Shown here piece after piece: positions 24,433 to 45,675 of a stretch of DNA of 64,000 nucleotides. Made by a program: the position numbers and the translations under genes. The DNA is from Pseudodesulfovibrio sp. 5S69 (lineage in GTDB: Bacteria > Desulfobacterota > Desulfovibrionia > Desulfovibrionales > Desulfovibrionaceae): positions 1,048,501-1,112,500 of the forward strand of contig NZ_CP146609.1 of the NCBI RefSeq assembly GCF_037094465.1. Direction: 5' to 3'. The notes below the pieces were generated by a model. It was not told the origin of the DNA. It did no database searches and saw only the letters and a program-made list of their open reading frames with translations. The first letter of the stretch is position 1; every line of letters begins with the position of its first letter.

Positions 24433-24433
24433 G

Positions 24434-24720: not shown

Positions 24721-24762
24721 AGAGAGCCGCTGTCGGTTGGCGGTGCCAACCGAATCGCTCCA
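24721..24762 (+). repeat. Family C hairpin with variable stem
   Basis: The conserved flank AGAGCCGCTG is followed by perfect arms TCGGTTGGC/GCCAACCGA around GGT, then the conserved flank ATCGCTCCA. The same flanks with different but fully paired stems occur at 32336 and 45638. A flankless relative, TCGGGTGC-TGC-GCACCCGA, follows at 24783-24801. Confidence 0.8.
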
Positions 24763-24815
24763 TAAGAGGGGCGGAATGGCTGTCGGGTGCTGCGCACCCG
24801 AGGCGCTATTTGGTG

Positions 24816-24838
24816 AGGGAGCTTGGCTCCCTTTTTTT
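24816..24838 (+). terminator. Strong rho-independent terminator in non-coding DNA
   Basis: AGGGAGC-TTG-GCTCCCT is directly followed by a run of seven T (shared with the stem end). The nearest upstream gene is topA, 384 bp away, so it ends either a long topA 3' region or a separate non-coding RNA. Confidence 0.8.
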
Positions 24839-25080
24839 GTGGGAAAAAGTTGCGGGAATTGATCCAGATCAATGTTTTTTTGGGTGGCGCTCTGTAGAAG
24901 GGAGGTGCGGATGGGGCATGACCAACCCCGCCGCAGGAGACATTCTCTACCATGGGTGGTCAGCCATTGCCGCCCGAACGTCACACCCTACATCCTCCCC
25001 AAGAAGGCCGTCCGTAACCGGGCGGCCTTCCTGGTTGCGCGGGGCTGGATTGTTTGGCGGAAACAACGTATTTGCTGCCC

Positions 25081-25758
25081 ATGCCCGATACCCAACCCGA
25101 TGCACAGGCCGTGCTGGCCGCGGCCCGCACGCTGGGCCGCCCCGTGGAACCGGACCAGGCAAAGCTGCTGGCCGTGTACCTGGATCAGCTCATCAAGTGG
25201 AACAGGAAGATGAACCTGGTGGGTCCGTCCGACTGGCGGACCGTGTTCGACCGGCTGGTGGTGGACTCCCTGTTCCTGGCCGATTTCGTCGCCGGGCTGA
25301 AGCTGCACGATCGGCCGCTCAGCCTCGACTTCGGGGCCGGTGCCGGACTGCCCGGCATCCCCCTGCGCGTGCTCTGGCAGCAGGGCGACTACTGGCTGGT
25401 GGAGGTGCGCGAGAAACGGGCCACCTTCATGAAGAGTGCGCTCGGGCGCCTCAAGCTGCCCGGCACCGGCGTCTTCCTGGGCAAGGCCGAGGACGCCCTG
25501 GACCGCCTGGCCCGATCCGGCCACGAAGACACTGCGGACCTCATTCTCAGCCGCGCCTTCATGCCCTGGCAGAAACTCCTTGATTTCATTCGCCCCATGC
25601 TTCGCAAGGCCCCCGGCCGCATCGGCACCGCCATTATCCTGGCCAACGACCCACCCCCGGCCGAGTCCGCCATCCCCGACGGCTGGCAACTCGGCGACGT
25701 CGCCTCCTACCCGGCGGCGGGCTCCGAGCGCTACTTCTGGTCGTTCAAGGTCGAGTAG
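25081..25758 (+). CDS. rsmG: 16S rRNA (guanine527-N7)-methyltransferase
   Basis: The 225-residue protein has the GidB/RsmG motifs KWNRKMNLVGPSDW, then RLVVDSLFLAD, the SAM-binding LDFGAGAGLPGIPLRVLW, VEVREKRATFMK and DLILSRAFMPWQKLL. It methylates G527 in the 530 loop of 16S rRNA; loss gives low-level streptomycin resistance in other bacteria. The ATG at 25081 is preferred; an in-frame TTG at 25054 would add nine residues. No strong ribosome-binding site precedes it. An imperfect GC-rich hairpin in the leader (about 25003-25030) could affect expression. Confidence 0.93.
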   Translation: MPDTQPDAQAVLAAARTLGRPVEPDQAKLLAVYLDQLIKWNRKMNLVGPSDWRTVFDRLVVDSLFLADFVAGLKLHDRPLSLDFGAGAGLPGIPLRVLWQQGDYWLVEVREKRATFMKSALGRLKLPGTGVFLGKAEDALDRLARSGHEDTADLILSRAFMPWQKLLDFIRPMLRKAPGRIGTAIILANDPPPAESAIPDGWQLGDVASYPAAGSERYFWSFKVE

Positions 25759-25770
25759 GGAGGAAGAATG

Positions 25771-25860
25771 CCTCCGGCGGCCAGAGGGGGAACCTCTTGA
25801 AGAGGTTCCCCTCTGGACTCCCCTCCAGAACCTTTTGTGTGCCTTCGGCAAGGCGTGCGG
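25771..25860 (+). repeat. Family A element downstream of rsmG
   Basis: CCTCCGGCGG leads into inverted arms at 25781-25815 (CCAGAGGGG..AACCTCTT against AAGAGGTTCCCCTCTGG, one bulge). GACTCCCCTCCAGAACCTTT, TGTGTGCCTTCGGCAAGG follow. It points the same way as rsmG and starts 12 bp after its stop. Confidence 0.85.
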
Positions 25861-25873
25861 ACGCCAAAGAAAC

Positions 25874-25899
25874 AACCCCGGCTCAAACGGACCGGGGTT
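25874..25899. terminator. Bidirectional hairpin between convergent rsmG and cysS
   Basis: AACCCCGG (25874-25881) and CCGGGGTT (25892-25899) pair perfectly. T-rich sequence follows on both strands (TTCGTT on plus, GTTTCTTT on minus). It sits between two oppositely oriented family A elements. Confidence 0.65.
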
Positions 25900-25914
25900 T
25901 CGTTATCTGCACAC

Positions 25915-26027
25915 TCCGCGAAGCGGCACAAAAGGTTCAGGAAGGGAGAGGGATGAGGGTCCGGGGAAGGGAGAGGGAAAGCCCTTCCAAAGGGTTTCCT
26001 CTCCCCTTCCCCCCGCCGCCGGAGGCA
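25915..26027 (-). repeat. Family A element downstream of cysS
   Basis: Read on the minus strand: GCCTCCGGCGGCGGGGGGAA, a partly paired palindrome (GGGGAGAGGAAACCCTTT with its purine return), CCCCGGACCCTCATCCCTCT and CTGAACCTTTTGTGCCGCTT. Block order and spacing match the copies at 9058 and 25771, again oriented with its upstream gene and starting about 10 bp after the cysS stop. Confidence 0.85.
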
Positions 26028-26036
26028 TCTTTCGCC

Positions 26037-27494
26037 TTACAAAACGTCCCAGGTGGCGCCCTGCGGGGTGTCGTGGACTTCGACCTGCATGGCGGCGAGT
26101 TCGTCGCGGATGGCGTCGGACTTGTCGAAGTCCTTGTCCTTGCGCGCCTGGGCGCGGGCGTCGAGCAGTTCGGTGACCTTGGCCGGGTCGATGCCGGCGC
26201 GGGCGGCGCGGTTGTCGCGCAGCTCCAGGAGGAACTCGGCGGGCTCGCGCTCGAAGATGCCGAGGATGGAGGCCCAGTCGGCCATGTCCGCCTTGATGCG
26301 GCCAAAGAGATCTCGGCCGCCTTCGGACTTGCGCAGGTTCTTGTCTTCGGCCACGCGCCCGGCCAGGCGGATGACGGAGAAGATGTGCCCCAGGGCGCCC
26401 GCGGTGTTCAGATCGTCGGCCATGGCCTCGGCAAAGTGCTTTTCGAGTTCGTCGAGTTCCCGGGTCAGTTCTTCGGGGAACGGAGATTTCTTCCACTTGG
26501 CCTTGTCCAGTTCCACGTCGATCTGGTTCAGGGCGGAGTAGATTCGTTTGACGCCCTTCTCGGCTTCTTCGAGGGCGTCGAAGGAGAAGTCAAGCGGGCT
26601 TCTGTAGTGCATGGTCAGCAGGAAGTAGCGCAGGGTCTCGGGCAGGAACTTGTCCAGGATGTCGCGGATGGTAAAGAAGTTGCCGAGCGATTTGGACATC
26701 TTTTCGGAGTTGATCTGCACGAACCCGTTGTGCACCCAGTAGTTGGCGAACGGCTTGCCCGTGGCGGCTTCGGATTGCGCCACCTCGTTCTCGTGGTGCG
26801 GGAAGGACAGGTCCTGGCCGCCGCCGTGGATGTCCAGCGGCAGGGGGGAGTACTTCTCGCTCATGGCCGAGCACTCCAGGTGCCAGCCGGGGCGGCCTTG
26901 GCCCCACGGGGATTCCCAGAACGGCTCGCCGGGCTTGGCTGCCTTCCACAGGGCGAAGTCGAGCGGGTCCTGCTTCTCCTCGCCCGGGGCGATGCGCGCG
27001 CCGGATTCGAGCTCGTCGATGTTGCGGCCGGACAACTTGCCGTAGCCGTCAAAGGATCGGACCTTGAAATACACGTCGCCGGACGGGGTGGCGTAGGCGT
27101 GGCCCTTGTCGATGAGTCGCTGGGTCAGGTCGATCATCTCGGGGATGTGCTCCGTGCACTTGGGCTCCACCGTGGGCCGCTCGATGTTCAGGCGGTCCAT
27201 GTCCACGTAGAACTCGCCGATGAACTTTTCGGCGATCTCGCTGGCCTCCTTGCCCACCTCGGCCGCGCGCTTGATGATCTTGTCGTCGATGTCCGTGAAG
27301 TTGCGGATGAAGTTGACCTTGTACCCCTCATGCTTGAGGTAGCGATAAAGCACGTCGAAGACCACGCTGGAGCGGGCGTGGCCGATGTGGCAGAGGTCGT
27401 AGGCCGTGATGCCGCAGACGTACATGTTCACGTCGTTGTCGTTGGCCGGGGTGAATGCTTCCTTGTGCCTTTTGAGGGTGTTGTAGAGTCTCAT
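26037..27494 (-). CDS. cysS: Cysteinyl-tRNA synthetase
   Basis: The 485-residue class I synthetase charges tRNA-Cys. The HIGH motif is in [20 protein letters not shown] near residue 35 and KMSKS in [11 protein letters not shown] near 263. Zinc-ligand blocks include [10 protein letters not shown] and the later WHLECSAMS and [14 protein letters not shown]. The tail carries the helical DALR-type anticodon region. The N-terminal phrase [14 protein letters not shown] matches the family start. GGAG lies seven bases before the ATG. It is the last gene of the nif3 to cysS run. Confidence 0.98.
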
Positions 27495-27537
27495 TGGATT
27501 ACTCCATTTTTATTACATTGAAATAATTATGCTTTAA

Positions 27538-28419
27538 TTAAATGCCATTCGTCGGGACGGTGTCCACGTGGATGTTCAGGAGGTCCAGGTTCTCGAACAG
27601 GTCGCGGCCCATGAAGAAGTAGAGCACGGGCACGGACTCCGCCGGGTTGGCGGACACGGTCAGGGAGCCGGGGTCGCTCAGGAACGTCTTCAGGCCGAGC
27701 ATGGCGGCGCGGGCCGGTTCGTTGGCCTGGGTCTCGGCATAGGCGGCCAGGCCGTCCAGCTCCGCGCTGATCCGGTCCAGGGTGACGGATTCGGACACGC
27801 CCGTCTTCCGAGCCCAGTCCTCGCCGACCAGCCGCATGAACTCGCGGTTGTCGAAGGTCAGGACCGCTTTGCGGATGCCCAGGGCGAAGCTTTGTTCCGG
27901 GCTGAACCCGGTCAGGTTCAGGTTGTCCAGGGAGCCGGTCAGCTTGATCGAGCCGAGCTTGGGGTCGTCCAGGGAGAGGTCCTTGAGCTCCAGGATCTTG
28001 GTCTCCGGGTCGTAGGCGTAGTCCAGGGTGCCGTCGCCGAACAAGGTCTCGATGCCGAGCCCCTTGATGTACCCGGCCCACTCGCCGAAATTTTGCGGGG
28101 TCACCGGTATGCTCAACCCCTTGGCGGAAATGGCCGCGTAGTGGGGTATGGGGTTGTCCCGGTCGAATGCGGCGATGGACACCGAATCGGCCTGGACGTG
28201 CTGGCCCGAGGGGAACAGGGCGTCCACCCCCTTGAGGGTCACGGTGTGGGCGATGATGTCCACGGACAGGTCGGCGTAGGACAGGGCCAGCCCCGGCGTG
28301 TCGGCCACGGCGCGGGTCAGTTCCTTGTCCACCTCGGTGTTGACGTACCATTTCAGGCCGAAAAAGCAGAGCGCGGCGAAGATGACGAAGGAGAGCAGGA
28401 ATTTCTTCAGGCCGGACAC
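27538..28419 (-). CDS. Membrane-anchored periplasmic protein of unknown function
   Basis: The 293-residue protein has an N-terminal uncleaved signal anchor (KKFLLSFVIFAALCFFGLKWYV) and a large predicted periplasmic part built of alternating strands (VTLKGVDALFPSGQHVQADS, LELKDLSLDDPKLGSIKLTG). The style recalls DUF945/AsmA-like proteins, but I cannot assign a family. The start is GTG with GGGAG seven bases upstream, one base after the ispDF stop, so translation is probably coupled to ispDF. It precedes cysS by 43 bp. Confidence 0.78.
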   Translation of the reverse strand: MSGLKKFLLSFVIFAALCFFGLKWYVNTEVDKELTRAVADTPGLALSYADLSVDIIAHTVTLKGVDALFPSGQHVQADSVSIAAFDRDNPIPHYAAISAKGLSIPVTPQNFGEWAGYIKGLGIETLFGDGTLDYAYDPETKILELKDLSLDDPKLGSIKLTGSLDNLNLTGFSPEQSFALGIRKAVLTFDNREFMRLVGEDWARKTGVSESVTLDRISAELDGLAAYAETQANEPARAAMLGLKTFLSDPGSLTVSANPAESVPVLYFFMGRDLFENLDLLNIHVDTVPTNGI

Positions 28420-28420
28420 G

Positions 28421-29617
28421 TCACATCTCCCTCAGGCCGGTGACGCAGGCCACGGCCTTGATGCCTTTCTTTTCGCCGGTGAAGCCGAGCTTTTCCTCGG
28501 TGGTGGCCTTGAAGTTGACCTGATGCGCTTCCAGGCCGAGCAGCCGGGACACGTTCCTGGCGATCTGCGCGGCGTGGGGGGCCAGGCGCGGCACCTGGGC
28601 GATGACGGTCAGGTCCGCGTGGACGATGCGGGTCTCGGCCCGCTCGGCCATGGACAGGACCTCGCGCACGAGCATGCCGCTGTCCGCGTTGTCGAAATTC
28701 GGGTCCGTGTCCGGAAAATGGGTGCCGATGTCCCCGCCGCCGAAGGTGCCGAGGATGGCGTCGGCCAGGGCGTGCAGGAGCACGTCGCCGTCCGAGTGGG
28801 CCACGGTGGACGGGCCGCCGGGGATGGGCACGCCGCCCAGGACCAGGGGCCGGTCGTGCTCGCCGCCGAAGCGGTGCACGTCGTAACCCCAGCCCGTGCA
28901 CGGCACGGTGGTGCGGGCCTCCCGGAGACGCTTCAGGTCTTCGGGCAGGGTGATCTTGACGTTGGCCGCCTCGCCGGGAACGATCGCGACCTCGGCCAGC
29001 CGCTCGACCATGGAGGCGTCGTCCGTGACCTCCCAGCCCTCGGCCAGGGCGCGGTCGTGGGCCTCGCGCAACAGCGCGGTCTCAAACCCCTGCGGAGTCT
29101 GCACGGCCGCAAGTTCGGCACGGTTCAGGGTCTCGGCGACCGTGTTGCCGGATACCCGCTTGACCGTGTCGGTCACGGGCACGGCCGGGATCACGCCGCG
29201 TGCGCCGGAATCGAGCGCGCCGAGGAGGTCGCGGACCAGTCGGGCCGAGAAAAAGGGCCGGGCCGAGTCGTGGATCAGGACGCGGCCGCACGACCTGGGC
29301 AGGCCGGTCAGGCCGTTGCGCACCGAGTCCTGTCGGCGCTCGCCGCCTGCGACCACGGTCCACTGCACGCCGAGATCCTCGGTCTTGAAGAACTGGCGCA
29401 GCTTCTTGTCCATGGTCGGGGCGTCCTCGGGCGGGAAGACGAAGACCAGGCCGCGCACGTCGGCCACGCGGGAAAAGGTCCGGGCGCAGTGCCAGAACAG
29501 CGGCGCGGATTTGTACTCAAGGTACTGCTTGCGCTCGCCGCCCGTGGCCTCGGCCAGCCGGGTCCCGGAGCCTGCGGCCAGGATGATGGCCCAAATGTCG
29601 TTCATGGTGCGGTCCAT
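28421..29617 (-). CDS. ispDF: Bifunctional IspD/IspF enzyme of the MEP isoprenoid pathway
   Basis: The protein has 398 residues from ATG 29617 (29605 is an alternative). Residues about 1-235 are the IspD cytidylyltransferase with the nucleotide loop IILAAGSGTRLAEATGG and IHDSARPFFSARLV. Residues about 240-398 are the IspF cyclase with GWGYDVHRFGGEH, PGGPSTVAHSDGDVLLHALA and GGGDIGTHFPDTDPNF. It catalyses steps 3 and 5 of the MEP pathway to IPP/DMAPP; the intervening kinase IspE is separate. The fusion is common in alpha-, epsilon- and some delta-type proteobacteria. Confidence 0.96.
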   Translation of the reverse strand: MDRTMNDIWAIILAAGSGTRLAEATGGERKQYLEYKSAPLFWHCARTFSRVADVRGLVFVFPPEDAPTMDKKLRQFFKTEDLGVQWTVVAGGERRQDSVRNGLTGLPRSCGRVLIHDSARPFFSARLVRDLLGALDSGARGVIPAVPVTDTVKRVSGNTVAETLNRAELAAVQTPQGFETALLREAHDRALAEGWEVTDDASMVERLAEVAIVPGEAANVKITLPEDLKRLREARTTVPCTGWGYDVHRFGGEHDRPLVLGGVPIPGGPSTVAHSDGDVLLHALADAILGTFGGGDIGTHFPDTDPNFDNADSGMLVREVLSMAERAETRIVHADLTVIAQVPRLAPHAAQIARNVSRLLGLEAHQVNFKATTEEKLGFTGEKKGIKAVACVTGLREM

Positions 29618-29678
29618 GCGGTTGCCTGTCGAAATTGGGCGCACGGGGGAGGGGCTGCCTCCCCCGCGCGGTGTACAC

Positions 29679-30046
29679 AAGTCGGAGCCGGTCATAAGCC
29701 GGGTCTTGTTCCCCTCGCGGGGCGGTCATCATTCATCTAGGCCGCCCGTTACCGGACGGCTCGAGCAACCAACCCGACAGCTTCGGCCGGGCCGGCCTCA
29801 AACGCTGTCCTATTCGGTCTTGCTCCGGACGGAGTTCACCTGGCCTGCCGCGTCGCCGCGACAGCCGGTGGGCTCTTACCCCACCGTTTCACCCTTACCG
29901 CCGGGTTGCCCCGGTGGCGGTCTGCTTTCTGTTGCACGTGACGGGGATCGCTCCCCCTGGGCGTTACCCAGCGTCCTGCCCTGCGGAGCCCGGACTTTCC
30001 TCCCCGGCCAATGGCCGCGGCGATGACCTGCCCGACTCCGGACTTG
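29679..30046 (-). ncRNA. rnpB: RNase P RNA, bacterial class A
   Basis: The minus strand contains the universal core GAGGAAAGTCCGGGCTCC near the 5' end, then GGTAACGCCCAGGGGGA, GTGCAACAGAAAGCAGACCG, GGTGAAACGGTGGGGTAAGA, GCCCACCG, and near the 3' end ACAAGACCCGGCTTATGACC. The ends pair as helix P1 (CAAGTCCGGAGTCGGG with CCGGCTCCGACTT), which fixes the limits to within a few bases. It is the catalytic subunit that trims tRNA 5' leaders. It lies between the zinc-ribbon gene (6 bp away) and ispDF. A GC-rich hairpin without a T-run at 29645-29665 follows it. Confidence 0.95.
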
Positions 30047-30051
30047 TGATG

Positions 30052-30789
30052 CTATTCCTCTTCGGCGCCTTGCGGCTGCACAAAGGCCTGCCAGTAAATC
30101 AGCCGCTGGCAGTTGGGGCAGCTCAGGATCTGCTGGCCCTTCTGCAGGTCGTTGTACGACTGCGGCGGGATCATGATGTTGCAGCCCGAGCACACGCCTT
30201 CGGAGACCGGCACGATGACCGGGTGCTCCATGCGCTCGCGGATGAACTCGTAGCGGCCCAGGATCGGCGGCGGAACGGCCTTGCAAGCCTTCTTGCGCTT
30301 GCGGTTCAGGGCTTCGAGCTTCTTGTTGGCCTTGTCCAACCGCTCGTCCAGAGTGGTCTTGAGCGCATCGAACTGCTCCTTTACGCCGCCCATTTCCTCG
30401 TCCAGGGCCTGGGTGGCTTCGTCCTGGCGGACCAGCTCCTCGCGCACGGCCGCCTGCTCGTCGTCGCGCATGCGGTTGAGCTTCTCCAGGGAATCCATCT
30501 CGCGCATCATGGCGTGGTATTCCTTGGTGTTGCCGACGAGCATCAGCTTGTTCTTGGACTTCTTGATCTTGCCGGCGTCTTCTTCGATCTCCACGGACAG
30601 CTTTTTCTTCTGTTCGTTGAGGATGCTCATCTTTTCGTCGATCTGACCGCGGCGTTCCTCGAACTCGCCGAGCTGGTTCTCGAGGTCGGCCAGTTCCTGG
30701 GGCGCCTGCTCGATCTCCTGGGTCAGCTCAAGGATTTCGTCGTCCACTTCCTGCAGGACGATCAACTGTTCAATCTGTTTCTGATACAT
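30052..30789 (-). CDS. Coiled-coil protein with C4 zinc ribbon
   Basis: The 245-residue protein has a long coiled coil (about 5-175, Glu/Lys/Leu heptads such as DEILELTQEIEQAPQELADL). It ends in a zinc ribbon: EGVCSGCNIMIPPQSYNDLQ followed by ILSCPNCQRLIYW. This matches the CdsZ/DUF164-type family found widely in bacteria, whose function is poorly defined; links to nucleic acid or RNase-related roles are suggestive only. It lies directly upstream of rnpB and 44 bp after the Nif3-like gene. Confidence 0.88.
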   Translation of the reverse strand: MYQKQIEQLIVLQEVDDEILELTQEIEQAPQELADLENQLGEFEERRGQIDEKMSILNEQKKKLSVEIEEDAGKIKKSKNKLMLVGNTKEYHAMMREMDSLEKLNRMRDDEQAAVREELVRQDEATQALDEEMGGVKEQFDALKTTLDERLDKANKKLEALNRKRKKACKAVPPPILGRYEFIRERMEHPVIVPVSEGVCSGCNIMIPPQSYNDLQKGQQILSCPNCQRLIYWQAFVQPQGAEEE

Positions 30790-30833
30790 GGGTTAACCTC
30801 ACTATCTATTTGAAATCAAAAAAAGTGTATCCG

Positions 30834-31829
30834 CTACTTGCTGTATACCGAAAAGGGGTCCTCGCCCGGGAAGAAACGGACCTCCGCGCGGGGCAGGGCC
30901 TCGCCCAGTTCCAGGGCGAAGCGGCGCATCATTTCCTCTTCCAGGGAGAAGTGGCCCACGTCCACCACGCAGACCGGGGTCTCCACGGCCGGGTGGTACT
31001 TCATGTCCCCGGTGACGAACACGTCCGCCCCGGCGCGCGCCGCCCGTTCGATCAGGGACGTGCCCGAGCCGCCGCAATAGGCCACGGTGCGCACGGTCCC
31101 GGGCCTGGGCCCGGCGACCGTCAGGACGTCGCGTTCGACCAGCCCGGCCAGCCGGTCCAGGAACGCGTCAAAAGGCATCGCCTCGGGCAGCTCGCCCGCC
31201 TCGCCGAAGCCGACCTCGCTCACCGGCGCGGTCAGGGAGCGCAGGTAGAACAGGGGGCGTCGGCCCAGGGAAAATTCGATCTTGTCCGCCAGTCCGGGCC
31301 ACTTGGGCTCGTCGCAGACCACCCGGATCTCGCCCGTGCGGCTCTGGGCCACCGAGTGTACTCCGTCGTGGTCGGCCCAGATGTCGGCCGCCTCGCGGGA
31401 GATCTGCTCCTCGCTATAGAACGACGCCTCCACCGGGGCGCGGCCGTGCTCCACTTCGAGCAGCCGCCTGCCGGTCAGCCCCAGCGCCTCGCCCAGCCAG
31501 AAGGCCGGACCGTCCGGCCGGGTGTCCAGGGAGGTGTGGGCCGCGTACAGCCAGCTCCCCGTGGGGATCACCGACCGGAGCACGTCCAGGTACATCCCTT
31601 CCGCGCTTGGGGCCTTGGGCTTCATGTACAGCGGGTGATGCGTGATCACCGCGCCCGCGCCCCACTCGATGCAACGGGAGACCGCGGCCGGGGTCGGCTC
31701 CAGGGTCACGGCCACCTTGTCCACATCGGCCACCGAGCCCGCCACCTGCACGCCGGAATTGTCCCAGGAACTCTGGTTTTCCTCCGGGGCGAGGTTTCTA
31801 AAAATAGCTAAAATCTCTTGAATTTTCAT
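30834..31829 (-). CDS. Nif3-like dinuclear metal-centre hexameric protein (GTP cyclohydrolase I type 2 family)
   Basis: The 331-residue protein has the Nif3/YbgI motifs SSWDNSGVQVAG at the start, GAVITHHPLYMKP (two metal-binding histidines), YAAHTSLDTRPDGPAFWLGE, the inserted middle domain, and the closing VFVTGDMKYHPAVE and VVDVGHFSLEEEMM. The middle insertion, a PII-like domain, fits the longer Nif3 forms. The family binds two metals; the physiological reaction is unsettled. The ATG at 31829 matches the family start MKIQEILAIF. It is the first gene of the nif3, zinc-ribbon, rnpB, ispDF, cysS run. Confidence 0.9.
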   Translation of the reverse strand: MKIQEILAIFRNLAPEENQSSWDNSGVQVAGSVADVDKVAVTLEPTPAAVSRCIEWGAGAVITHHPLYMKPKAPSAEGMYLDVLRSVIPTGSWLYAAHTSLDTRPDGPAFWLGEALGLTGRRLLEVEHGRAPVEASFYSEEQISREAADIWADHDGVHSVAQSRTGEIRVVCDEPKWPGLADKIEFSLGRRPLFYLRSLTAPVSEVGFGEAGELPEAMPFDAFLDRLAGLVERDVLTVAGPRPGTVRTVAYCGGSGTSLIERAARAGADVFVTGDMKYHPAVETPVCVVDVGHFSLEEEMMRRFALELGEALPRAEVRFFPGEDPFSVYSK

Positions 31830-31999
31830 ATGGTTACGACCATCTCCCATAATGAGGATGCTCCCGTAGGGTTTCCCCCTCGGGAGCATCTCTTGTCCTC
31901 TTCGATCACCCGGCCAACGGCCTTATCGGGGGATTTCAGGAAATATGCGTTCTTCTGCTTTCGGGTCTTCGTCAATCACGTCTCCCGGAAGTGGGTCGT

Positions 32000-32075
32000 T
32001 GGTGGGCCAGCCAGGATTCGAACCTGGGACCGACCGGTTATGAGCCGGTGGCTCTGCCAACTGAGCTACTGGCCC
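32000..32075 (-). tRNA. tRNA with CAT anticodon (elongator Met or Ile2)
   Basis: The minus strand folds as a 76-nt cloverleaf: acceptor GGGCCAG/CTGGCCC, D-arm GCTCAGTTGGCAGAGC, anticodon arm ACCGG-CTCATAA-CCGGT, T-arm CCAGG-TTCGAAT-CCTGG and encoded ACCA. The CAT anticodon serves elongator methionine or, after lysidine modification, isoleucine AUA. Acceptor and arm sequences do not let me choose; I lean to Met. It is not an initiator, because the G29-G31 run of three GC pairs is absent and position 1 pairs normally. Confidence 0.95.
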
Positions 32076-32143
32076 GCCGTGGAGTCGAGCACCATAGCCG
32101 GAAGCCGGCCATGGTGTCAACTCCACGACGGTGCGTTGTACGG

Positions 32144-32262
32144 CGGCTTCCGAGAGCGGGCCATCTGCACATTTTTTCCGGGGGGGGCTTTCATCCTCAT
32201 GTAGGCCCACTACACTGCGGTGAAAGCCCCCCGGAAGAAAATGCACATCTGACCCACTCTCG
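32144..32262 (+). repeat. Family B hairpin element, copy 2 (compact)
   Basis: It begins CGGCTTCCGAGAGCGGGCCA, then TCTGCACATTTTTTCC, arms GGGCTTTCA/TGAAAGCCC with an inner GTAG/CTAC pair, and closes with GAAAATGCACATCTGACCCA, CTCTCG. In this copy the two halves form one long imperfect hairpin of roughly 42 positions per arm. It shares near-identical blocks with the copy at 24434. Confidence 0.85.
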
Positions 32263-32291
32263 AAAGCCTCACTCCGTGCGGGCCCGGCGGA

Positions 32292-32332
32292 AAGAGCCGC
32301 TGTTTGCGCGCCTTGCGCACAAAGGCACTCCA
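32292..32332 (+). repeat. Family C hairpin with variable stem
   Basis: The flank AGAGCCGCTG leads to TTTGCGCGC-CTT-GCGCACAAA (one C/A mismatch) and then GGCACTCCA, a variant of the usual closing flank ATCGCTCCA. Confidence 0.65.
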
Positions 32333-32335
32333 TGG

Positions 32336-32377
32336 GGAGAGCCGCTGTCGGGTGCCTTGGGCACCCGAATCGCTCCA
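32336..32377 (+). repeat. Family C hairpin with variable stem
   Basis: The flank GAGAGCCGCTG leads to perfect arms TCGGGTGCC-TTG-GGCACCCGA and the closing flank ATCGCTCCA. A diverged relative (TTCGCGCGC-TTT-GCGCACGAA, then GGCACTCCA) follows at 32412-32450. The 32076-32479 interval holds no gene that I can support beyond these repeats. Confidence 0.8.
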
Positions 32378-32479
32378 GATGGAGGGAGACGGGGAATGCC
32401 CTTATTGAATAGGCCGTTGTTCGCGCGCTTTGCGCACGAAGGCACTCCAGGGGGGGAGGGGAAGTATGGGCTTGTGGGC

Positions 32480-33349: not shown

Positions 33350-33380
33350 CGTCTTTCTATGAGTTTAATTCATGGATAAT

Positions 33381-37452: not shown

Positions 37453-37471
37453 GGAACCGGGCGGGCCGCCT

Positions 37472-37495: not shown

Positions 37496-37544
37496 GGCCC
37501 GCCCGTTGCGGCATGGTGTTCCCCGAAACCATCCGGAGAACACC

Positions 37545-38441: not shown

Positions 38442-38488
38442 GAGCCCCAAGGGAAACACCATCGCCTACCTCCATTGCGCAACGAAAA

Positions 38489-38525
38489 GGCCCCGGTTCC
38501 CGGTGGAGTGCCGGGGGCCGGGGCC
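38489..38525 (-). terminator. Nested hairpin terminator between EamA and cyclase genes
   Basis: GGCCCCGG (38489-38496) and CCGGGGCC (38518-38525) pair perfectly, with an inner CCCGG/CCGGG pair. On the minus strand TTTTCG follows, so it serves the cyclase gene ending at 38566; it may also stop the convergent EamA transcript. Confidence 0.7.
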
Positions 38526-38565
38526 GATGGTGAACCGGTCGCGCGGATATTGATGCGGCTCGACG

Positions 38566-39384: not shown

Positions 39385-39644
39385 CGAAACTCTCTCTTTT
39401 TTTACGTAATCCGGGGAAAGGCGCATCCGGCGCAGCGTGCGCCCGATTCCACCCGTCCCCGTCAGTTCCGGCGACCGGAGCGTTGGCTCCGCCTCCCCGA
39501 TCGCCCGGACATCCGTTTCTGATATGGACCAGCTCTATGGCAGCTATAGTACTCCAACGGACCGTTGCCCGGCAATATCGGAGAAGGGCATTTTCGGGTG
39601 GGTGAAGAGGGGAATGAAGGCCGCTTTGCAGCGGGGACGGATGA

Positions 39645-39695
39645 TTTTGCTTCCGACGGCCAAAGGGGCGGGCCCCTTTGGAATCTTTGGGCCGC
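39645..39695 (+). repeat. Family A-like palindrome
   Basis: TTCCGACGGCCAAAGGGGC with return arm GCCCCTTTGG (10-bp perfect arms, 2-base centre), then AATCTTTGGGCCGCCTGCGG. It is a shortened or divergent family A element inside the 39385-39974 non-coding interval. Confidence 0.5.
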
Positions 39696-39859
39696 CTGCG
39701 GCGAGGGAGGAGAACGGAAAGAAGGAAGGCTTGGCGGGCGCGGTTCGGCGCGACCCCTTAGGGACGGTTGCCCACGCCGCCAGGCAGGGCGAGGGGTAAG
39801 GAAAATGGAGAGGGCGGCGTGTTGAACCGAGGCAAAAGCGAATTGCCGCGCTCCCACCA

Positions 39860-39911
39860 TCCGCGCAGCGGCCACAAAAAGTTTAGGAAAAGGAGGGGAT
39901 GGGGGGCCGGG
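39860..39911 (-). repeat. Family A element, right half, minus orientation
   Basis: On the minus strand: CCCCGGCCCCCCATCCCCTC, CTTTTCCTAAACTTTTTGTG, GCCGCTGCGCGG. It matches the right half of the copies at 9058 and 25771 and is oriented with the upstream minus-strand DRTGG gene. The rest of 39385-39974 contains no gene that I can support. Confidence 0.75.
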
Positions 39912-39917
39912 GGGCAA

Positions 39918-39953
39918 AAAAAGGATGGGCCGCTGACGCGGCCTATCCTTTTT
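39918..39953 (-). terminator. Rho-independent terminator after the DRTGG-domain gene
   Basis: Arms AAAAAGGATGGGCCGC and GCGGCCTATCCTTTTT (one mismatch) flank TGAC. On the minus strand a run of seven T follows, 21 bp after the stop at 39975. The A/T-flanked stem would also work on the plus strand. Confidence 0.85.
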
Positions 39954-39974
39954 ACTTTGTCTGAGGCAGCCCGG

Positions 39975-41039
39975 TTATTTCAGGCCGAGTTCCTTTTTGA
40001 GGAATTCGAAGTCTATGTTGTTGGACACGAGTTCGGCGCCCTGTTTGATCTTGATGGCGTCGCGCAGTTTGTGGCGGGAGAGGATGTCGTCCATTTTCTT
40101 GGCCACGGTGAAGGTGTCTTCGCGGACCATGATGATGGGCGTTTCCAGGACCTCGGAGCGGGTCAGGATGATGTCGTTGGGGTAGAGGTTGCCGGTCAGG
40201 ATGAGGCAGGGGCAGTCGCCTTCCAGCGCCACGAGCTGCACGTCGGACCGGTCGCCGCCCACGATGATGGCGGAGTTCTTCTTCTTGCGGAAGTGGGTCA
40301 TGAAGTTTTCGACCTGCATGGTGCCGATGAGGAAGGACTCGACCACGCGCTCGCTCTTGTTGTGGGCGGAGATGATCTTGCCGCCCAGGCGGTCGGCCAG
40401 ATCCCCGACCTTGATGGCGCCCATGAGCGGGTCGCGGGGGATGACGCCCAGGATCTTGACGCCCTTGGCCTCCAGGGCGGGGCCGAGGAGCTGGGTGATC
40501 TCGTCCATGAAATTCGGGGGCACGTCGTTGAGGATGACACCCGCCATGAGGTCGCCCAGGGTCTCCTTCATGGCCATGAGGTAGTCGTATTTGAGTTCCT
40601 TCTGGAAGCGGTCGATGATCACGGTCTTGATGCCGAGCCTGCGGACCACGGAGATGGCGTCGGTATCGCAGTACTTGCCCGAGTACATGGACCCGGACCC
40701 GGCCACCAGGGTGACGTCCTTGTCCTTGGAGACCGCCTCGTAGCCTTCGACGATGCTGTCGAGCAGCCCGTCCATCTTGCCGGTGAACGCCTTGACCTTG
40801 AAGTCCTGGGTGACCACCACGGGGGTGACCATGGCCGGGTCTTCGGCCAGGCCGAGCACGTCCTGGACAAAGGCGGCGTCCTCGTCGCCGAGCTTGCCGT
40901 CCATCTCCATGGGCATGGCCCCGACGGGTTTCATGTAGCCCACGTTGTACCCGTCTTTCTGCAGGCGCAGGCCCATGCCCATGACGATCATGTTTTTGCC
41001 TGAATACCCGGTGGTAGAGCCTATGTAGAGTCCAGCCAT
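39975..41039 (-). CDS. DRTGG-domain, BioD/phosphotransacetylase-N-like protein
   Basis: The 354-residue protein has an N-terminal P-loop dethiobiotin-synthetase-like domain (MAGLYIGSTTGYSGKNMIVM, GYMKPVGAMPMEMDGKLGDE) and a C-terminal DRTGG regulatory domain (AHNKSERVVESFLIGTMQVE, SAIIVGGDRSDVQLVALEGD). This is the arrangement of the N-terminal half of long phosphotransacetylases, without the catalytic Pta domain. It probably senses a nucleotide or CoA-related metabolite. It follows the ADP-forming acyl-CoA ligase gene by 88 bp on the same strand, so a regulatory link with that enzyme is likely but not shown. Confidence 0.88.
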   Translation of the reverse strand: MAGLYIGSTTGYSGKNMIVMGMGLRLQKDGYNVGYMKPVGAMPMEMDGKLGDEDAAFVQDVLGLAEDPAMVTPVVVTQDFKVKAFTGKMDGLLDSIVEGYEAVSKDKDVTLVAGSGSMYSGKYCDTDAISVVRRLGIKTVIIDRFQKELKYDYLMAMKETLGDLMAGVILNDVPPNFMDEITQLLGPALEAKGVKILGVIPRDPLMGAIKVGDLADRLGGKIISAHNKSERVVESFLIGTMQVENFMTHFRKKKNSAIIVGGDRSDVQLVALEGDCPCLILTGNLYPNDIILTRSEVLETPIIMVREDTFTVAKKMDDILSRHKLRDAIKIKQGAELVSNNIDFEFLKKELGLK

Positions 41040-41127
41040 GCCTATTGTCCTCCTGAAGGTGAAAGGGGCGGGAACCGCAGCACCCCGTCTTTTGTTAGTA
41101 TATGAGACCGCGAAAAATGTCCAAGCG

Positions 41128-43236
41128 TCAAATGGGCCCGACGGTCACGCGCAGGTCGGCCACGAACGCCCCTTGCGCGTCCACCAGGATGGGGTTGAGT
41201 TCGGCCTCGCGTATCTCCGGAAAGTCCGTGGCCATCTGGGACATGGACAGCAGGATGTCCTCGATGGCCGCCAGGTTGACCGGCTCCTCGCCGCGCACGC
41301 CGCGCAACAGGGGGAACGACTTGATCTCGCGGACGATGTCCTGGACGTCGTGCAGGGCCAGCGGAGCCAGCCGGTAGCTGATGTCGCCCAGGATCTCGGC
41401 GGACGGTCCGGCCAGGCAGAACGAGATGAGCGGGCCGAACTGCGGGTCCTGGGTGAACCGGACCACGACCTCGCGGGCCTTGACCGGGCCCATGGTCTGG
41501 ACCAGGCAGCCCGCGATGTAGATGTCCGGGCGCTTGCGCTGGGCCCGTGTGGTGATGTCGAGCCAGGCCTCGCGCACCTCGCGCGGTGTGTTCAGTTCCA
41601 GGGCCACGCCGTCCACCTCGCCCCGGCTGGCCAGGTGGGGTGATTCGATCTTGAGCGCCACGGGGTAGCCCATTTTCTTGGCCGCGCGCACGGCCTGGTC
41701 CGAGGTGCGCACCAGCCGGGTCTCGGGCACGGGCAGCTCGTAGGATGCGGCGATATCCATGGCGTCGTTGAAGGGCAGCTCGGCCACGCCCGCGGCCAGG
41801 GCGGCCTGGATGGTCCGCTCGGCCCGTCCCTTGTCGCGGCGGAAGCAGACCTCCACCGGGTAGGGCCGGTTTTTCCACCGGTAGTGGGCGAGCATGGCCG
41901 AGATGGCCGTGATCGCCGGTTCCGGGTAGGCGTAGCAGGGGATGCCCGCGGCCAGGAGCATGTCCCGGCCCGGGCCGATCCGCTCGTCGCCCATGAACGA
42001 GGCGAAGATCGGTTTGTCGCAGGTCTTGGAAATGTCGATGATCGCCTGGGCGGTCTCGGTGATCTCGGCCGAGGCCGTGGGCGTGAGCAGGACCAGGATG
42101 GCGTGGGTGGTCTCGTCCTCGGCCACGGCTTCCAGCGTGGCCCGGTAGCGTTCGGCCTTGGCGTCCCCGATGATGTCGATGGGGTTGTAGATGGCGGCAA
42201 ACGGCGGCAGGGCCTTGGTCAGCCGGTCCAGGGTGGCGGTGGAGGGCCGGGCCAGGTTGAGCCCGGCGGCCTCGCAGGCGTCGGCGGCCAGGATGCCGGG
42301 CCCGCCGGAGTTGGTCACCACGGCCAGGTTCGGGCCCTGGGGCAGGGGTTGCTCGGCAAAGGCGCGCGCCAAGTCGAACAGGGTCTCCAGGTTTTCCACC
42401 CGGATGATGCCCGCCTGCTTGAACGCGGCCAGTCCGGCCTCCACGCTTCCGGCCAGGGAGCCGGTGTGGCTGGACGTGGCCCGCGCGCCCGCGGGGGTGG
42501 TGCCCGCCTTGATCATGATGACCGGCTTCTTTTCGGTCACGGCCCGCGCACGGGTCAAAAATTTGCGGCCGTCGTTCACGGACTCCAGGTAGCCGATGAT
42601 GACCTTGGTGTCCGGGTCGTCGCCCAGCGCTTCGAGCACGTCCGCCTCGGACACGCCCGCCTTGTTGCCCAGCGAGACGAACTTGGAGAAGCCGATGGAT
42701 TCGCCCTCGGCCCAGTCCAGGATGGCCGAGCACAGGGCCCCGCTCTGGGAGAAGAAGGAGATGGACCCTTTGGCGGGCATGGTCTGGGCGATGGACGCGT
42801 TCAGGTTGATGGCCGTGTTGAACAGCCCGAGCGTGTTCGGGCCGAGCAGGGTGATGTCCCGGCGCCGGGCCAGGTCGGCCATCTCCATTTCGAGCTCGAA
42901 GCCGTCGCGCCCGGTCTCGCGGAAGCCCGCGGTGATGACGCAGATGGCGTCCACCTTGGCGTCGGCCAGCTCGCGCATGGCCTGAAGGACCTTCTCGCGC
43001 GGCAGGACGATGATGCCGAGGTCCGGCGGTCGCGGCAGGTCGGCGGTGGACGGGTAGGCGGTCAGGCCGAGAATTTCTCCGCCCGCGGGATTGACGGGAA
43101 AGATTGTCCCCCTGTACCCTGCCGAGATCAAATTCGACAGGATGAGATGCCCGAGCTTGAGCGGGCTCCGGGATGCGCCGACCACGGCGATGGATTCGGG
43201 GTTGAAAAGTTCGCGTAGTTGGGCGTCTGGTTGCAT
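41128..43236 (-). CDS. ADP-forming acetate/acyl-CoA ligase (alpha-beta fusion)
   Basis: The 702-residue protein has the fused acyl-CoA synthetase (NDP-forming) layout: CoA-binding Rossmann domain (NPESIAVVGASRSPLKLGHL), succinyl-CoA ligase-like domain with the phosphorylatable histidine in SSHTGSLAGSVEAG near residue 258, and a C-terminal ATP-grasp domain (GYPVALKIESPHLASRGEVD, PDIYIAGCLVQTMGPVKARE). It interconverts acyl-CoA + ADP + Pi and acid + ATP + CoA, giving ATP in fermentative acid production or acid activation. The start codon is only 15 bp from the divergent rnc start, and no clear ribosome-binding site precedes it. Confidence 0.93.
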   Translation of the reverse strand: MQPDAQLRELFNPESIAVVGASRSPLKLGHLILSNLISAGYRGTIFPVNPAGGEILGLTAYPSTADLPRPPDLGIIVLPREKVLQAMRELADAKVDAICVITAGFRETGRDGFELEMEMADLARRRDITLLGPNTLGLFNTAINLNASIAQTMPAKGSISFFSQSGALCSAILDWAEGESIGFSKFVSLGNKAGVSEADVLEALGDDPDTKVIIGYLESVNDGRKFLTRARAVTEKKPVIMIKAGTTPAGARATSSHTGSLAGSVEAGLAAFKQAGIIRVENLETLFDLARAFAEQPLPQGPNLAVVTNSGGPGILAADACEAAGLNLARPSTATLDRLTKALPPFAAIYNPIDIIGDAKAERYRATLEAVAEDETTHAILVLLTPTASAEITETAQAIIDISKTCDKPIFASFMGDERIGPGRDMLLAAGIPCYAYPEPAITAISAMLAHYRWKNRPYPVEVCFRRDKGRAERTIQAALAAGVAELPFNDAMDIAASYELPVPETRLVRTSDQAVRAAKKMGYPVALKIESPHLASRGEVDGVALELNTPREVREAWLDITTRAQRKRPDIYIAGCLVQTMGPVKAREVVVRFTQDPQFGPLISFCLAGPSAEILGDISYRLAPLALHDVQDIVREIKSFPLLRGVRGEEPVNLAAIEDILLSMSQMATDFPEIREAELNPILVDAQGAFVADLRVTVGPI

Positions 43237-43251
43237 AAATAAGGGGGTTGA

Positions 43252-43935
43252 ATGGATACCGCTGAGCTACAGGATTGTATCCACCATAGGTTTGCCCAAG
43301 TCAAGTTCCTGGAGACGGCGCTGACCCACTCCTCGTTCGCCAACGAGCAGAGCGGCATCGAGGACAACGAGCGGTTGGAATTTCTGGGCGACGCCGTGCT
43401 GGAGCTGTGCATTTCCGAGGAGGGATTCAGGCGGTTTCCGTCTGCCCACGAGGGGCAGCTCACGCGCATCCGTTCCCAGTTGGTCAAGGAGCAGTCCCTG
43501 GCGGACATGGCCCGCGGGCTCAAGCTTGACCAGTACATCCGCCTCGGCCGGGGCGAGGAGCTGCAGGGCGGCCGGGAGCGCGACGCGCTGTTGGCAGACG
43601 CCTTCGAGGCCCTGCTCGGCGCGGTATTTCTGGACGGCGGCTTCGAGGCCGCCCGCCGGACCATATTGGAAATTTTCGAAGACGAGTGGCCCGCCCGGGC
43701 CATGCTGCCCGAGACCAAGGACTACAAGAGCCGGTTGCAGGAGGTGGCCCAGGAGTTGTTCCGCGACAGGCCGGTGTACGTGCTCTCCGGGACCAGCGGC
43801 CCCGAGCACGAGAAGTTGTTCGAGGTGGACGTGACCCTGCCGGGCGGCGAGCGGTTTCGCGGCACGGGCACCAGCGTGAAGCGGGCCGAGCAGGAGGCCG
43901 CGCGCATGGGCCTCGATTTTCTCGAAGAGGAATAG
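43252..43935 (+). CDS. rnc: Ribonuclease III
   Basis: The 227-residue enzyme cuts double-stranded RNA in rRNA and mRNA processing. The catalytic signature [18 protein letters not shown] lies near residue 40, the second acidic block [20 protein letters not shown] near 118, and the C-terminal dsRNA-binding domain ([39 protein letters not shown]) completes the protein. AAGGGGG lies before the ATG. It is divergent from the acyl-CoA ligase gene and convergent with the flagellin gene. Confidence 0.97.
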
Positions 43936-43960
43936 ATCCTCCCCACACCACACGGCCAAA

Positions 43961-44013
43961 ACGATCGGAGACCAAGCCCTGCGGGATTATCCCGCAGGGC
44001 CGGTTCCGATCGT
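43961..44013. terminator. Bidirectional nested hairpin between rnc and flagellin
   Basis: Outer arms ACGATCGGA and TCCGATCGT pair perfectly, and so do inner arms GCCCTGCGGGA and TCCCGCAGGGC around TTA. Going minus, TTTTGG follows; going plus, CTTCAG. It separates two convergent genes and would end the abundant flagellin message. Confidence 0.85.
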
Positions 44014-44039
44014 CTTCAGTCGCGTCTGGCCGGTGAGGG

Positions 44040-44969
44040 CTAGCCGCCGATGAGCTGCATGGCCATCCTCGGCAGGGAGTTGGCCTGCGCCAGCATGGCG
44101 ACAGCGGACTGGGTGAGAATCTGGTTGCGTACGAACTCGGTCATTTCCTGCGCCACGTCGACGTCGGAAATGCGGGACTCGGCAGCCTGCAGGTTCTCGG
44201 CCTGGATTTCAAGGTTGGTGATGGTGTTTTCCAGCCGGTTCTGCATGGAACCGAGGTTGGCGCGGATCTTGTCCTTGGAGATGATCGCCTTGTTGATCGC
44301 CTCCATGGCCGCCTGGGCCAGGCCCTGGGTGGAGATGGACTTGCCCGCGTTCTGGGCCTCCCAGGTGTCGCCGTTGGTCTTCAGTGCGGCCAGGTGGCCG
44401 AGCCCGAATGAGGACGCGGTGGAGCCCTGGATGGCCACGTAGTAGTAGTCCTCGGCCGAATCGTTGCCGGTGCCGAAGTGGATCTTCAGCGGGCCGGTGG
44501 CCTGGAGGCCCGTGCCGTCGTGGTCCACGCCGGGGTCGCCGGACAGGTTGCCGTTGAGCAGGTAAATTCCGTTGAAGTCCGTCGCGTGGGCGATACGGGT
44601 GATCTCCGAGCACATTGCCTGGTATTCGGAGTCGATGATCATCCGCTGGTCGGAGTTGTAGGTACCCGTGGACGCCTGCATGGCCAGCTCCTTCAGACGA
44701 ATGAGCTTTTCGTCGACCACCTGCAGCGCGCCGTCCGCGGTCTGGATCAGCGAGATCGCGTCGGATGCGTTGCGGATGCCCTGGTGCAGGGAACTGATTT
44801 CCGAACGCATGAGCTCGCGAATCGCCAGCCCGGCCGCGTCATCCGCAGCGGTGCCGACTCGCAGGCCGGAAGACAAACGCCGGGTGGAAACGCCGAGCCG
44901 TCCATAATGCTCCGACAGGTTCCTCTGGGCGTTCATGGCCATGAGGTTGTGGTTAATGACTAAAGACAT
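44040..44969 (-). CDS. Flagellin
   Basis: The 309-residue protein has the conserved flagellin ends: N-terminal D0/D1 (SLVINHNLMAMNAQRNLSEH, STRRLSSGLRVGTAADDAAG, LAIRELMRSEI) and C-terminal D1/D0 (AESRISDVDVAQEMTEFVRN, LTQSAVAMLAQANSLPRMAM, QLIGG). The central variable region (about 140-230) is short. It is exported by the type III apparatus and polymerises to the filament. AAGGAGGG precedes the ATG, and a sigma-54 type promoter lies upstream at 45014. Whether this is the only flagellin gene cannot be told from this window. Confidence 0.97.
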   Translation of the reverse strand: MSLVINHNLMAMNAQRNLSEHYGRLGVSTRRLSSGLRVGTAADDAAGLAIRELMRSEISSLHQGIRNASDAISLIQTADGALQVVDEKLIRLKELAMQASTGTYNSDQRMIIDSEYQAMCSEITRIAHATDFNGIYLLNGNLSGDPGVDHDGTGLQATGPLKIHFGTGNDSAEDYYYVAIQGSTASSFGLGHLAALKTNGDTWEAQNAGKSISTQGLAQAAMEAINKAIISKDKIRANLGSMQNRLENTITNLEIQAENLQAAESRISDVDVAQEMTEFVRNQILTQSAVAMLAQANSLPRMAMQLIGG

Positions 44970-45013
44970 CAGAACCCTCCTTGTTCGATTCTCAAATCCA
45001 TTTTGCCAAGATT

Positions 45014-45031
45014 AAGCATCATGTGTGCCAA
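45014..45031 (-). promoter_or_regulatory. Sigma-54 promoter of the flagellin gene
   Basis: The minus strand reads TTGGCACACATGATGCTT. GG and GC are exactly ten bases apart as sigma-54 requires, and TTGGCAC is the consensus -24 element. The start of transcription would fall near 45005, giving a leader of about 35 nt that includes the ribosome-binding site. Confidence 0.75.
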
Positions 45032-45254
45032 CTTACATTTCTCAAGTAATATTAAGAAAGTATCTATCTAAAAAATGTCTAGAAAGGTCATTTTTTCCCC
45101 TCCTCAAACGGGTGGAAACCCCAGTGCGTCAATGCGTTGTCAATATTTGCCGGGTGGGGGTGGGGTAGTCGAAGGGCCTCGACGGTGCCTTAAGAAGGTA
45201 AGGAAAGCCGCCCGATGGGCGGTGATTGATGGGAAAATGCGCGGTTGCACCGCT

Positions 45255-45288
45255 GAGAGCCGCTTTGCGGGCGGAGCCCGCTCGCTCC
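45255..45288 (+). repeat. Family C hairpin with variable stem
   Basis: The flank GAGAGCCGC, then GCGGGC-GGA-GCCCGC and CGCTCCG. A relative with GAGAGCCGG, TGAAGGGG/CCCCTTCA and CTCC lies at 45309-45344. Confidence 0.65.
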
Positions 45289-45344
45289 GGGACGCGCCTG
45301 CGACGCGGGAGAGCCGGTGAAGGGGTTGCCCCCCTTCAACCTCC

Positions 45345-45385
45345 GAGAGCCGCTGTGTGGGGCTGAAGCCCCACACAATTCTCCA
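45345..45385 (+). repeat. Family C hairpin with variable stem
   Basis: GAGAGCCGC, then perfect arms TGTGTGGGGC-TGAA-GCCCCACACA, then ATTCTCCA in place of the usual ATCGCTCCA. Confidence 0.75.
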
Positions 45386-45470
45386 TGCCCTCCCGGCGGG
45401 GTCCATTTTTTTGCTGGCCCAAAAAAATAGACGAAAAAAAGGGCCTTGGAGTGTTGGGCGGCCGCCCGGA

Positions 45471-45584
45471 GATCGGGGGATAAGAAGCTGATCGATTCGG
45501 GTCGGCTCCCGATTCGAGGCTCGCTACGCTCGCTGCGAATCGAAGAGCCGCCGCCCCGAATCGTCAGCTTCTACCCCCCCGATC
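45471..45584. repeat. Long inverted repeat of about 30 bp per arm
   Basis: The left arm starts GATCGGGGGATAAGAAGCTG, then ATCGATTCGGG. The right arm is CCCGAATCGTCAGCTTCTAC, then CCCCCCGATC. They pair with few mismatches. The interior holds further pairs (GGCTC/GAGCC, ATTCG/CGAAT), so the whole 114 bp can fold into one branched structure. Confidence 0.75.
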
Positions 45585-45637
45585 AAGGGCTCGTTTGGGT
45601 GCAGGGAAGAGGTGTGGCGGGACGAGGTGGGGCGGGG

Positions 45638-45675
45638 GAGAGCCGCTGTCGGACGCGGGCGTCCGAATCGCTCCA
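45638..45675 (+). repeat. Family C hairpin with variable stem
   Basis: GAGAGCCGCTG, then perfect arms TCGGACGC-GG-GCGTCCGA, then ATCGCTCCA. The flanks equal those at 24721 and 32336 while the stem differs. Confidence 0.8.

Follow-up and report, generated by a model that had tools for sequence, protein, structure and literature searches.

Paired stem changes at orthologous sites in a family of intergenic palindromic repeats from Pseudodesulfovibrio sp. 5S69 and its relatives

The family C hairpin and its copies in the window

The DNA analysed here (the window) is a stretch of 64,000 nucleotides from Pseudodesulfovibrio sp. 5S69 (contig NZ_CP146609.1, positions 1,048,501 to 1,112,500). It carries nine copies of a short hairpin, named family C, that are grouped in three clusters and start at window positions 24722, 24776, 32292, 32337, 32412, 45255, 45309, 45345 and 45638. 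Family C is a new and apparently orphan palindromic repeat, the unusual part of which is the clear paired rewriting of its stem at orthologous sites. Below, G000 is the 4.16-Mb genome that carries the window, and G012, G049, G009, G006 and G041 are relatives from the same genus. A preliminary description, made from the sequence alone, had reported about nine copies in three clusters; direct reading of the clusters located all the stems that it had listed and gave a count of nine. The copies are listed here with their scores in a covariance model (CM) of the family.

24722 to 24762, + strand: hairpin copy 1, TCGGTTGGC-GGT-GCCAACCGA, with full flanks; CM match of 60.7 bits
24776 to 24808, + strand: hairpin copy 2, TCGGGTGC-TGC-GCACCCGA, with degenerate flanks; weak CM match of 27.0 bits (E 0.00999)
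32292 to 32332, + strand: hairpin copy 3, TTTGCGCGC-CTT-GCGCACAAA, with one C·A mismatch; CM match of 43.5 bits
32337 to 32377, + strand: hairpin copy 4, TCGGGTGCC-TTG-GGCACCCGA; CM match of 64.2 bits; G012 and G049 have TTGGATGC/GCATCCAA here
32412 to 32449, + strand: hairpin copy 5, TTCGCGCGC-TTT-GCGCACGAA, with one C·A mismatch and a diverged 5' flank, GGCCGTTG; not in the CM match list
45255 to 45289, + strand: hairpin copy 6, a variant, GCGGGC-GGA-GCCCGC; not in the CM match list
45309 to 45344, + strand: hairpin copy 7, TGAAGGGG/CCCCTTCA, with the variant flank GAGAGCCGG; not in the CM match list
45345 to 45385, + strand: hairpin copy 8, TGTGTGGGGCT-GA-AGCCCCACACA; CM match of 43.8 bits
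45638 to 45675, + strand: hairpin copy 9, TCGGACGC-GG-GCGTCCGA; CM match of 54.0 bits

Copies consist of one hairpin rather than an inverted pair, and their conserved ends read GAGAGCC / CGCTCCA. An outer helix, GAGC/GCTC, is followed by an asymmetric conserved inner collar (CGCTG / ATC, or GGC). The apical stem, of about 7-11 bp, is free to vary in sequence provided that pairing is kept. The loop usually has three bases and usually begins with T, TGC being the commonest. Copies with the standard flanks end in a CTCCA-type sequence with no T-run directly 3' of the hairpin, which is not the pattern of an intrinsic terminator; some copies have a separate G+C hairpin and a T-run further downstream. 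Two statements of the preliminary description needed correction. Its stems were said to be perfectly paired, which does not apply to the one at 32303, where an internal C·A mismatch interrupts TTTGCGCGC/GCGCACAAA, as it does in the orthologous copies of G012 and G049. Likewise, the flanks are less fixed than it had proposed: the exact pair GAGAGCCGCTG and ATCGCTCCA encloses just three of the nine copies, and the remaining ones have related flanks.

Abundance and covariation in the genome

The exact flank GAGAGCCGCTG occurs at 47 sites in G000, against two for the reversed pattern. A hairpin follows it with a score of at least 6 at 46 of these sites and of at least 8 at 38, compared with 400 and 53, respectively, of 3000 random window positions. 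If only the window is considered, the flank shows no enrichment when up to two mismatches are allowed (33 found vs 38.7 expected). Therefore, the significance comes from the exact flank and the hairpin taken together over the whole genome.

Covariation was scored on 33 copies that were picked by their flank and whose relatedness inflates such scores: the value is 0.327, against 0.104 (standard deviation 0.015) in shuffles, none of 500 shuffles reaching it. Both-sided changes are found at seven of the nine apical pairs, and the outer helix is nearly invariant, but the copies were selected by that very flank. A genome scan with the CM gave 74 matches at E<=0.001, and relaxing the threshold to E<=1 raised the number to 78. 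Furthermore, 267 of 294 sites located by their 5' flank, one mismatch being allowed, form a paired hairpin (score of at least 6), in a set of stretches mostly taken around model matches, which leans towards paired ones. The preliminary description thus withstands the two objections that it had raised against itself, a lack of further copies and broken pairing in most of them. At G000:C1:221082-221682 (L125:1583-2183), eleven model matches form a tandem array with a period of mostly 56 bp.

Stem changes at orthologous sites

Stems of G000 and of its nearest relative, G012, were compared at 32 orthologous pairs of sites, chosen by eye, so that some may be missing, and over at most eight pairs from the base. 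Among 251 stem pairs, 229 are unchanged, 13 have changed on both sides and are paired, one has changed on both sides otherwise and eight have changed on one side. Under independence, 1.3 double changes would be expected. Two sites of uncertain register (1337202 and 2858061) contribute four of the 13, and nine remain without them by a hand count. The earlier claim that both arms change together is therefore borne out at orthologous sites, and the covariation of family C stems is real.

For instance, copy 8 in cluster 3 (45345) is TGTGTGGGGCT/AGCCCCACACA in the window, TGTGCGGGGCT/AGCCCCGCACA in G049 and TGTGCAGGC/GCCTGCACA in G012. Copy 7 (45309) is TGAAGGGG/CCCCTTCA in the window, TGAAGAAGC/GCTTCTTCA in G049 and TGTGGAGGC/GCCTCCTCA, with one T·T mismatch, in G009; its place in G012 and G006 holds the outer stem of the window and one more pair. 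At G000:1150961, the stem TCGGGTGCC/GGCACCCGA corresponds to TCGGATGC/GCATCCGA in G012, the upstream sequence being nearly unchanged and the downstream sequence diverged after about 20 bases.

One site differs as a whole unit. At 32337, the difference takes in the flanks as well as the stem: the window has the type that is common in the family, and G012 and G049 share another. This difference looks like an exchange between copies. Copies can also be missing: in G009 and G006, the sequences that flank cluster 1 are present but the whole block between them is lacking, and at cluster 2 the left side alone is shared with the window, with no copy in the 280 bases inspected.

Distribution among relatives

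At E<=1e-4, the CM had matches in 17 of the 36 genomes of the genus (between 1 and 82 per genome) and none in the other 19. In a sample of the order, scanned with stricter filters, 15 of 247 genomes were matched, all of them within one of 51 genera. Hence, the distribution is patchy and, within the genomes searched, limited to one genus. The four copy-richest genomes are G000, G041, G049 and G012; at E<=0.001, the match counts of the richest three are 63, 74 and 92. When relatives are ranked by one 3.7-kb segment, all of the ten closest are matched and the six that follow are not, with a few matches in some of those further away; over this segment, relatives with shared copy sites are 81-90% identical. 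Two loci were checked among the matches listed for a gapped pattern, for which roughly 100 chance matches were estimated: a Desulfovibrionaceae metagenome-assembled genome (MAG), L281, has a clear copy (57.1 bits) and a Deltaproteobacteria MAG, L233, a weak one (25.5 bits).

The commonest stem types vary from species to species. In G000, TCGGGTG- stems account for 33 of 68 copies; in G041, TTTGAGGC is found in 24 of 84 copies and TTGGGGC/TTTGGGGC in 31 of 84. Several copy sites are common to G000 and G041, and the same TGTG-type stems occur at different loci in G000 and G049. In G041, hairpins also occur in sets of two or three, spaced by about 70 bp and with stem types not shared with other sets of copies, for example at C1:18445-18623; GTAG precedes some of these hairpins.

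No match to window positions 32130-32385 was found among plasmids and phages, nor to one exact 19-base pattern among viral contigs, and carriage by a phage or plasmid was rejected on these grounds. Literature searches returned no paper recognisable as being on family C.

Genomic surroundings and the neighbouring family A palindrome

Gene neighbours were assigned for 67 of 68 copies (one has no left gene), with strands taken from a heuristic based on G+C at third codon positions and with copies that share a locus counted separately. The genes are convergent in 43 cases, co-directional in 12 and 9 and divergent in three. Copies are thus mostly located at the 3' ends of genes, with no preferred strand (12 vs 9).

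A second palindrome, family A, lies upstream of two of the clusters in the window.

24433 to 24607, + strand: family A palindrome, upstream of copies 1-2 and directly 3' of a TAG in frame with an open reading frame of 805 amino acids
32144 to 32268, + strand: family A palindrome, upstream of copies 3-5, with 42-nt arms that are 76% complementary

By a loose motif, the 3' end of a family A element lies at most 130 bases upstream of 39 of the 68 G000 copies. It precedes 32 of 37 copies of TCGGG-types, none of seven of TCGGA-types and none of six of TGCGG- and TGTGG-types. In many cases, family C thus forms the 3' module of a larger composite. A second composite repeat is seen at six G000 places, where a TGTG- or TGCG/TGCA-type hairpin and a TCGGACGC-type hairpin are 293-314 bp apart; it includes window positions 45345-45675 and has a common segment between its two hairpins.

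Family A has a conserved core within stems of several discrete types. The core is inverted in four of 81 elements, three of them found by an automatic test (G000:2762405, G012:523221 and G012:824005) and one by eye (G012:1547081). The last is the ortholog of window positions 24469-24522, where the core is forward. In all three cases that could be compared with an ortholog, the stem type of the element with the inverted core differs as well.

Copies cluster around the presumed replication origin: in G000, 43 of 58 loci lie within 1 Mb of it, and in G041, 50 of 59 loci do; the sets of the two genomes share sites and are thus not independent. In G000, this origin was located from a dnaA-like gene at 557 kb and from a change of GC skew over the stretches examined, and in G041 from shared sites. 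Two genes of G000 match the DnaA family strongly (C1:557164 with 107 bits and 1989344 with 147 bits), and there is one further, weak match. Within 1 Mb of the presumed origin, leading-strand loci prevail in G000 (31 vs 12, p 0.005) and the counts in G041 are 27 vs 23; three origin positions were tried per genome and we do not claim a bias in replication orientation.

How pairing may be maintained

We propose that family C is a non-autonomous, REPIN-like intergenic palindromic repeat whose pairing is upheld at the DNA level by arm copying and by exchange between copies, and we give this reading a probability of about one half. We infer that pairing is restored in DNA. Copying of one arm from the other is the favoured route, by which paired changes may arise in a single step. 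The hairpin would form in single-stranded DNA, where a mutation in one arm would be copied into the other, either by a template switch or by hairpin-directed correction. Exchange between copies would then spread stem types, giving each species its own commonest ones. Copies would mostly be tolerated passengers of the intergenic space on the 3' side of genes; earlier mobility, if any, would have needed a transposase, none of which was detected in G000. More tentatively, palindromy might be kept up by the DNA metabolism of the cell itself: with one arm of an extruded hairpin rewriting the other, stems could drift as matched pairs at dozens of sites with neither an RNA function nor a current transposase, and a recognition factor might hold the collar and the loop constant.

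The preliminary description had left a choice between selection on a structured RNA or DNA element and an active process that writes one arm from the other. Our results favour arm writing and go against the RNA form of selection, with few G·U pairs, no excess of G·U over A·C and no strand bias. Exchange between copies, which was absent from its readings, seems to take part too, as at 32337.

An RNA hairpin tolerates G·U pairs but not A·C. From the 294 sites, 208 distinct hairpins were kept after removal of those with a score below 6, arms longer than 12 bases or no CTCC-like 3' end and of sequences identical within a genome. Their 1762 pairs include 13 G·T cells (eight after removal by eye of five that belong to one bulged variant) and nine A·C cells, counts that favour paired stems because most copies outside G000 come from around model matches and low scores were dropped. 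In G000 alone, there are four G·T (one bulged) and three A·C. The excess of G·U over A·C expected of a structured RNA family is therefore not seen, and G·U makes up about 0.5% of pairs in family C against 5.9% (6/102) in the RNase P encoded in the window (with all 13 G·T cells counted, Fisher p 0.0003). Covariation of paired positions, which is also expected of such a family, is present. The few G·U pairs and the lack of strand preference favour upkeep at the level of DNA over RNA and make an RNA function less likely.

Several observations weigh against the proposal of arm copying and exchange, besides the lean of the above counts towards paired stems. First, the C·A mismatch at 32292 is kept in three species although a pair two positions off has changed on both sides; a longer copying tract should have removed this mismatch. 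Second, transitions prevail among the double changes (10 of 13) and transversions among the one-sided ones (6 of 8); with classes assigned by hand, the Fisher p is 0.03, rising to 0.06 if one bulged variant is left out. For the double changes, transitions would be the expected product of selection through wobble intermediates. Third, the commonest loops never occur in reverse complement (TGC 59, TTT 18, TGT 10 and GTT 7, among 136 distinct hairpins with loops of 3-4 nt), and three rare loop pairs alone are found in both senses (2/1, 1/2 and 1/1). Fourth, the cells of family A include 44 A·C and seven G·T in 59 distinct elements, as if the opposite strand were read as RNA, the independent number of A·C being smaller since these copies are related. 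Fifth, the inverted cores of family A may be module swaps, since the stem type differs as well in the three that have an ortholog for comparison and the exchange of an entire module would look no different. Finally, at four doubly changed sites (1080837, 1150961, 1093845 and 2858061) one allele has further copies in its genome, so that exchange could explain them.

Some of these points would suit selection at the RNA level, which we consider unlikely. The hairpin would then act in transcripts, as a stabiliser of 3' untranslated regions or as a signal for transcription or processing, and would evolve by ordinary compensatory mutations. Strong covariation, the position on the 3' side of genes with convergent neighbours in 43 of 67 cases, the transitions among double changes and the family A bias, read as G·U on the other strand, would all agree with it. 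It is countered by the scarcity of G·U, which does not exceed A·C, by the even strand counts and by the 19 unmatched genus genomes. It is also countered by Rfam 15, which at gathering scores finds RNase P and one tRNA alone in the window and has no match for family C; a described Rfam family was accordingly rejected.

Less probable still is a mobile element, in which a RAYT-like single-strand transposase would have copied well-paired hairpins alone. The stem type would then mirror the enzyme of each species, and insertions that reuse intergenic targets would mimic orthology. The patchy, high-copy distribution with species-specific stem types, the block of cluster 1 missing in G009 and G006 and the surrounding repeats, which also differ at several sites shared with G041, are consistent with this. 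Moreover, Y1 transposases were detected in 17 of the 36 genomes of the genus, and GTAG stands directly before GAGAG, the spacing that was counted, in 17 of 84 copies of G041, as well as in 2 of 56 of G012, none of 68 of G000 and none of 21 of G049. However, a profile search with PF01797, which detected this family in E. coli and four others of 14 control genomes, gave no match in G000, G041 or G049 and a 78-aa fragment alone in G012. Within about 1.5 kb on either side of Y1, no family hairpin was found at the 30 loci examined out of 46 genus Y1 matches listed (best score 8.9 bits). Y1 is present in 10 of 17 genomes with the hairpin and in 7 of 19 others, by a hand count, and the two look unrelated. 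The in-place paired change next to conserved upstream sequence at G000:1150961 also speaks against insertion. A RAYT/REP origin was rejected since G000 has no PF01797 match and none of the 30 Y1 loci has a copy.

Ectopic gene conversion alone is equally improbable: arms within about 20 bp would be replaced together, keeping pairing with no special copying, as the joint difference of stem and flanks at 32337, the species-specific commonest stems, the TGTG-type stems shared by different loci of G000 and G049 and the donors for one allele at the four sites named above would suggest, but conversion cannot invent new paired stems, and three sites have no donor among the flank-defined copies of the same genome, a list that leaves copies with diverged flanks outside. 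At G000:610215, the derived stem TCGGGTGT has no donor in this list and G012 and G049 retain TCGGGTGC; at 158443/628516 and 1080792/1554895, neither allele has a second copy among the listed ones of its genome. Therefore, exchange alone does not explain these three sites.

Comparison with known systems

Like the REPs and REPINs of Pseudomonas and E. coli, family C is short, dispersed, intergenic and hairpin-forming. It also shares with REPINs conserved ends together with compensatory changes in the spacer hairpin; passages of PMC3116915 already note paired spacer changes in REPINs. However, REPs have a RAYT in the genome, as a rule with the repeat on its flanks, and a GTAG at the foot of the palindrome, neither of which was found for family C in G000, and GTAG was not seen in its conserved ends. 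A REPIN consists of two inverted REPs in one long hairpin, whereas family C hairpins are single. Because PF01797 in G000, copies at the 30 Y1 loci examined and GTAG at G000 copies were not found and because the hairpins are single, we do not file family C as REP or REPIN. By description, family A, a long palindrome with conserved arms, is the closer likeness to a REPIN.

Other orphan or structured repeats offer partial parallels. The CGTC-tagged palindromic repeats treated in parts of PMC3733652 likewise have no dedicated transposase, but the ends of family C have no CGTC tag. The bacterial stem-loop sequence families of PMC2267715 are, in the sections consulted, likewise intergenic and defined by both sequence and structure; this paper contains none of the terms 'Desulfovibrio', 'compensat' and 'covari'. 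The intergenic repeats of Borrelia plasmids, as presented in excerpts of PMC2674063, also show paired changes between orthologs, including transversions, and some are directly downstream of genes. There, paired changes were taken as evidence of RNA structure, whereas the G·U and strand tests disfavour RNA for family C.

Covariation usually counts as a sign of RNA structure (PMC8794818). Family C covaries strongly, yet the rarity of G·U and the strand symmetry point to upkeep at the DNA level, which calls for caution in RNA discovery. Template switching at inverted repeats is the nearest process: its published mark is the homogenisation of arms with inversion of the spacer (passages of PMC8604942 and PMC8794818), and a paired stem change together with loop inversion is given as the strongest possible support for it (a passage of PMC8794818). 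Multi-base paired changes and apparent arm homogenisation are likewise seen here, with spacer inversion in family A. Unlike in those reports, the common loops of family C are never inverted and the process would act on a dispersed repeat, not on RNA genes or coding DNA. With many copies, relatives that share sites and paired changes between orthologs, family C can be viewed as a natural test bed for template switching.

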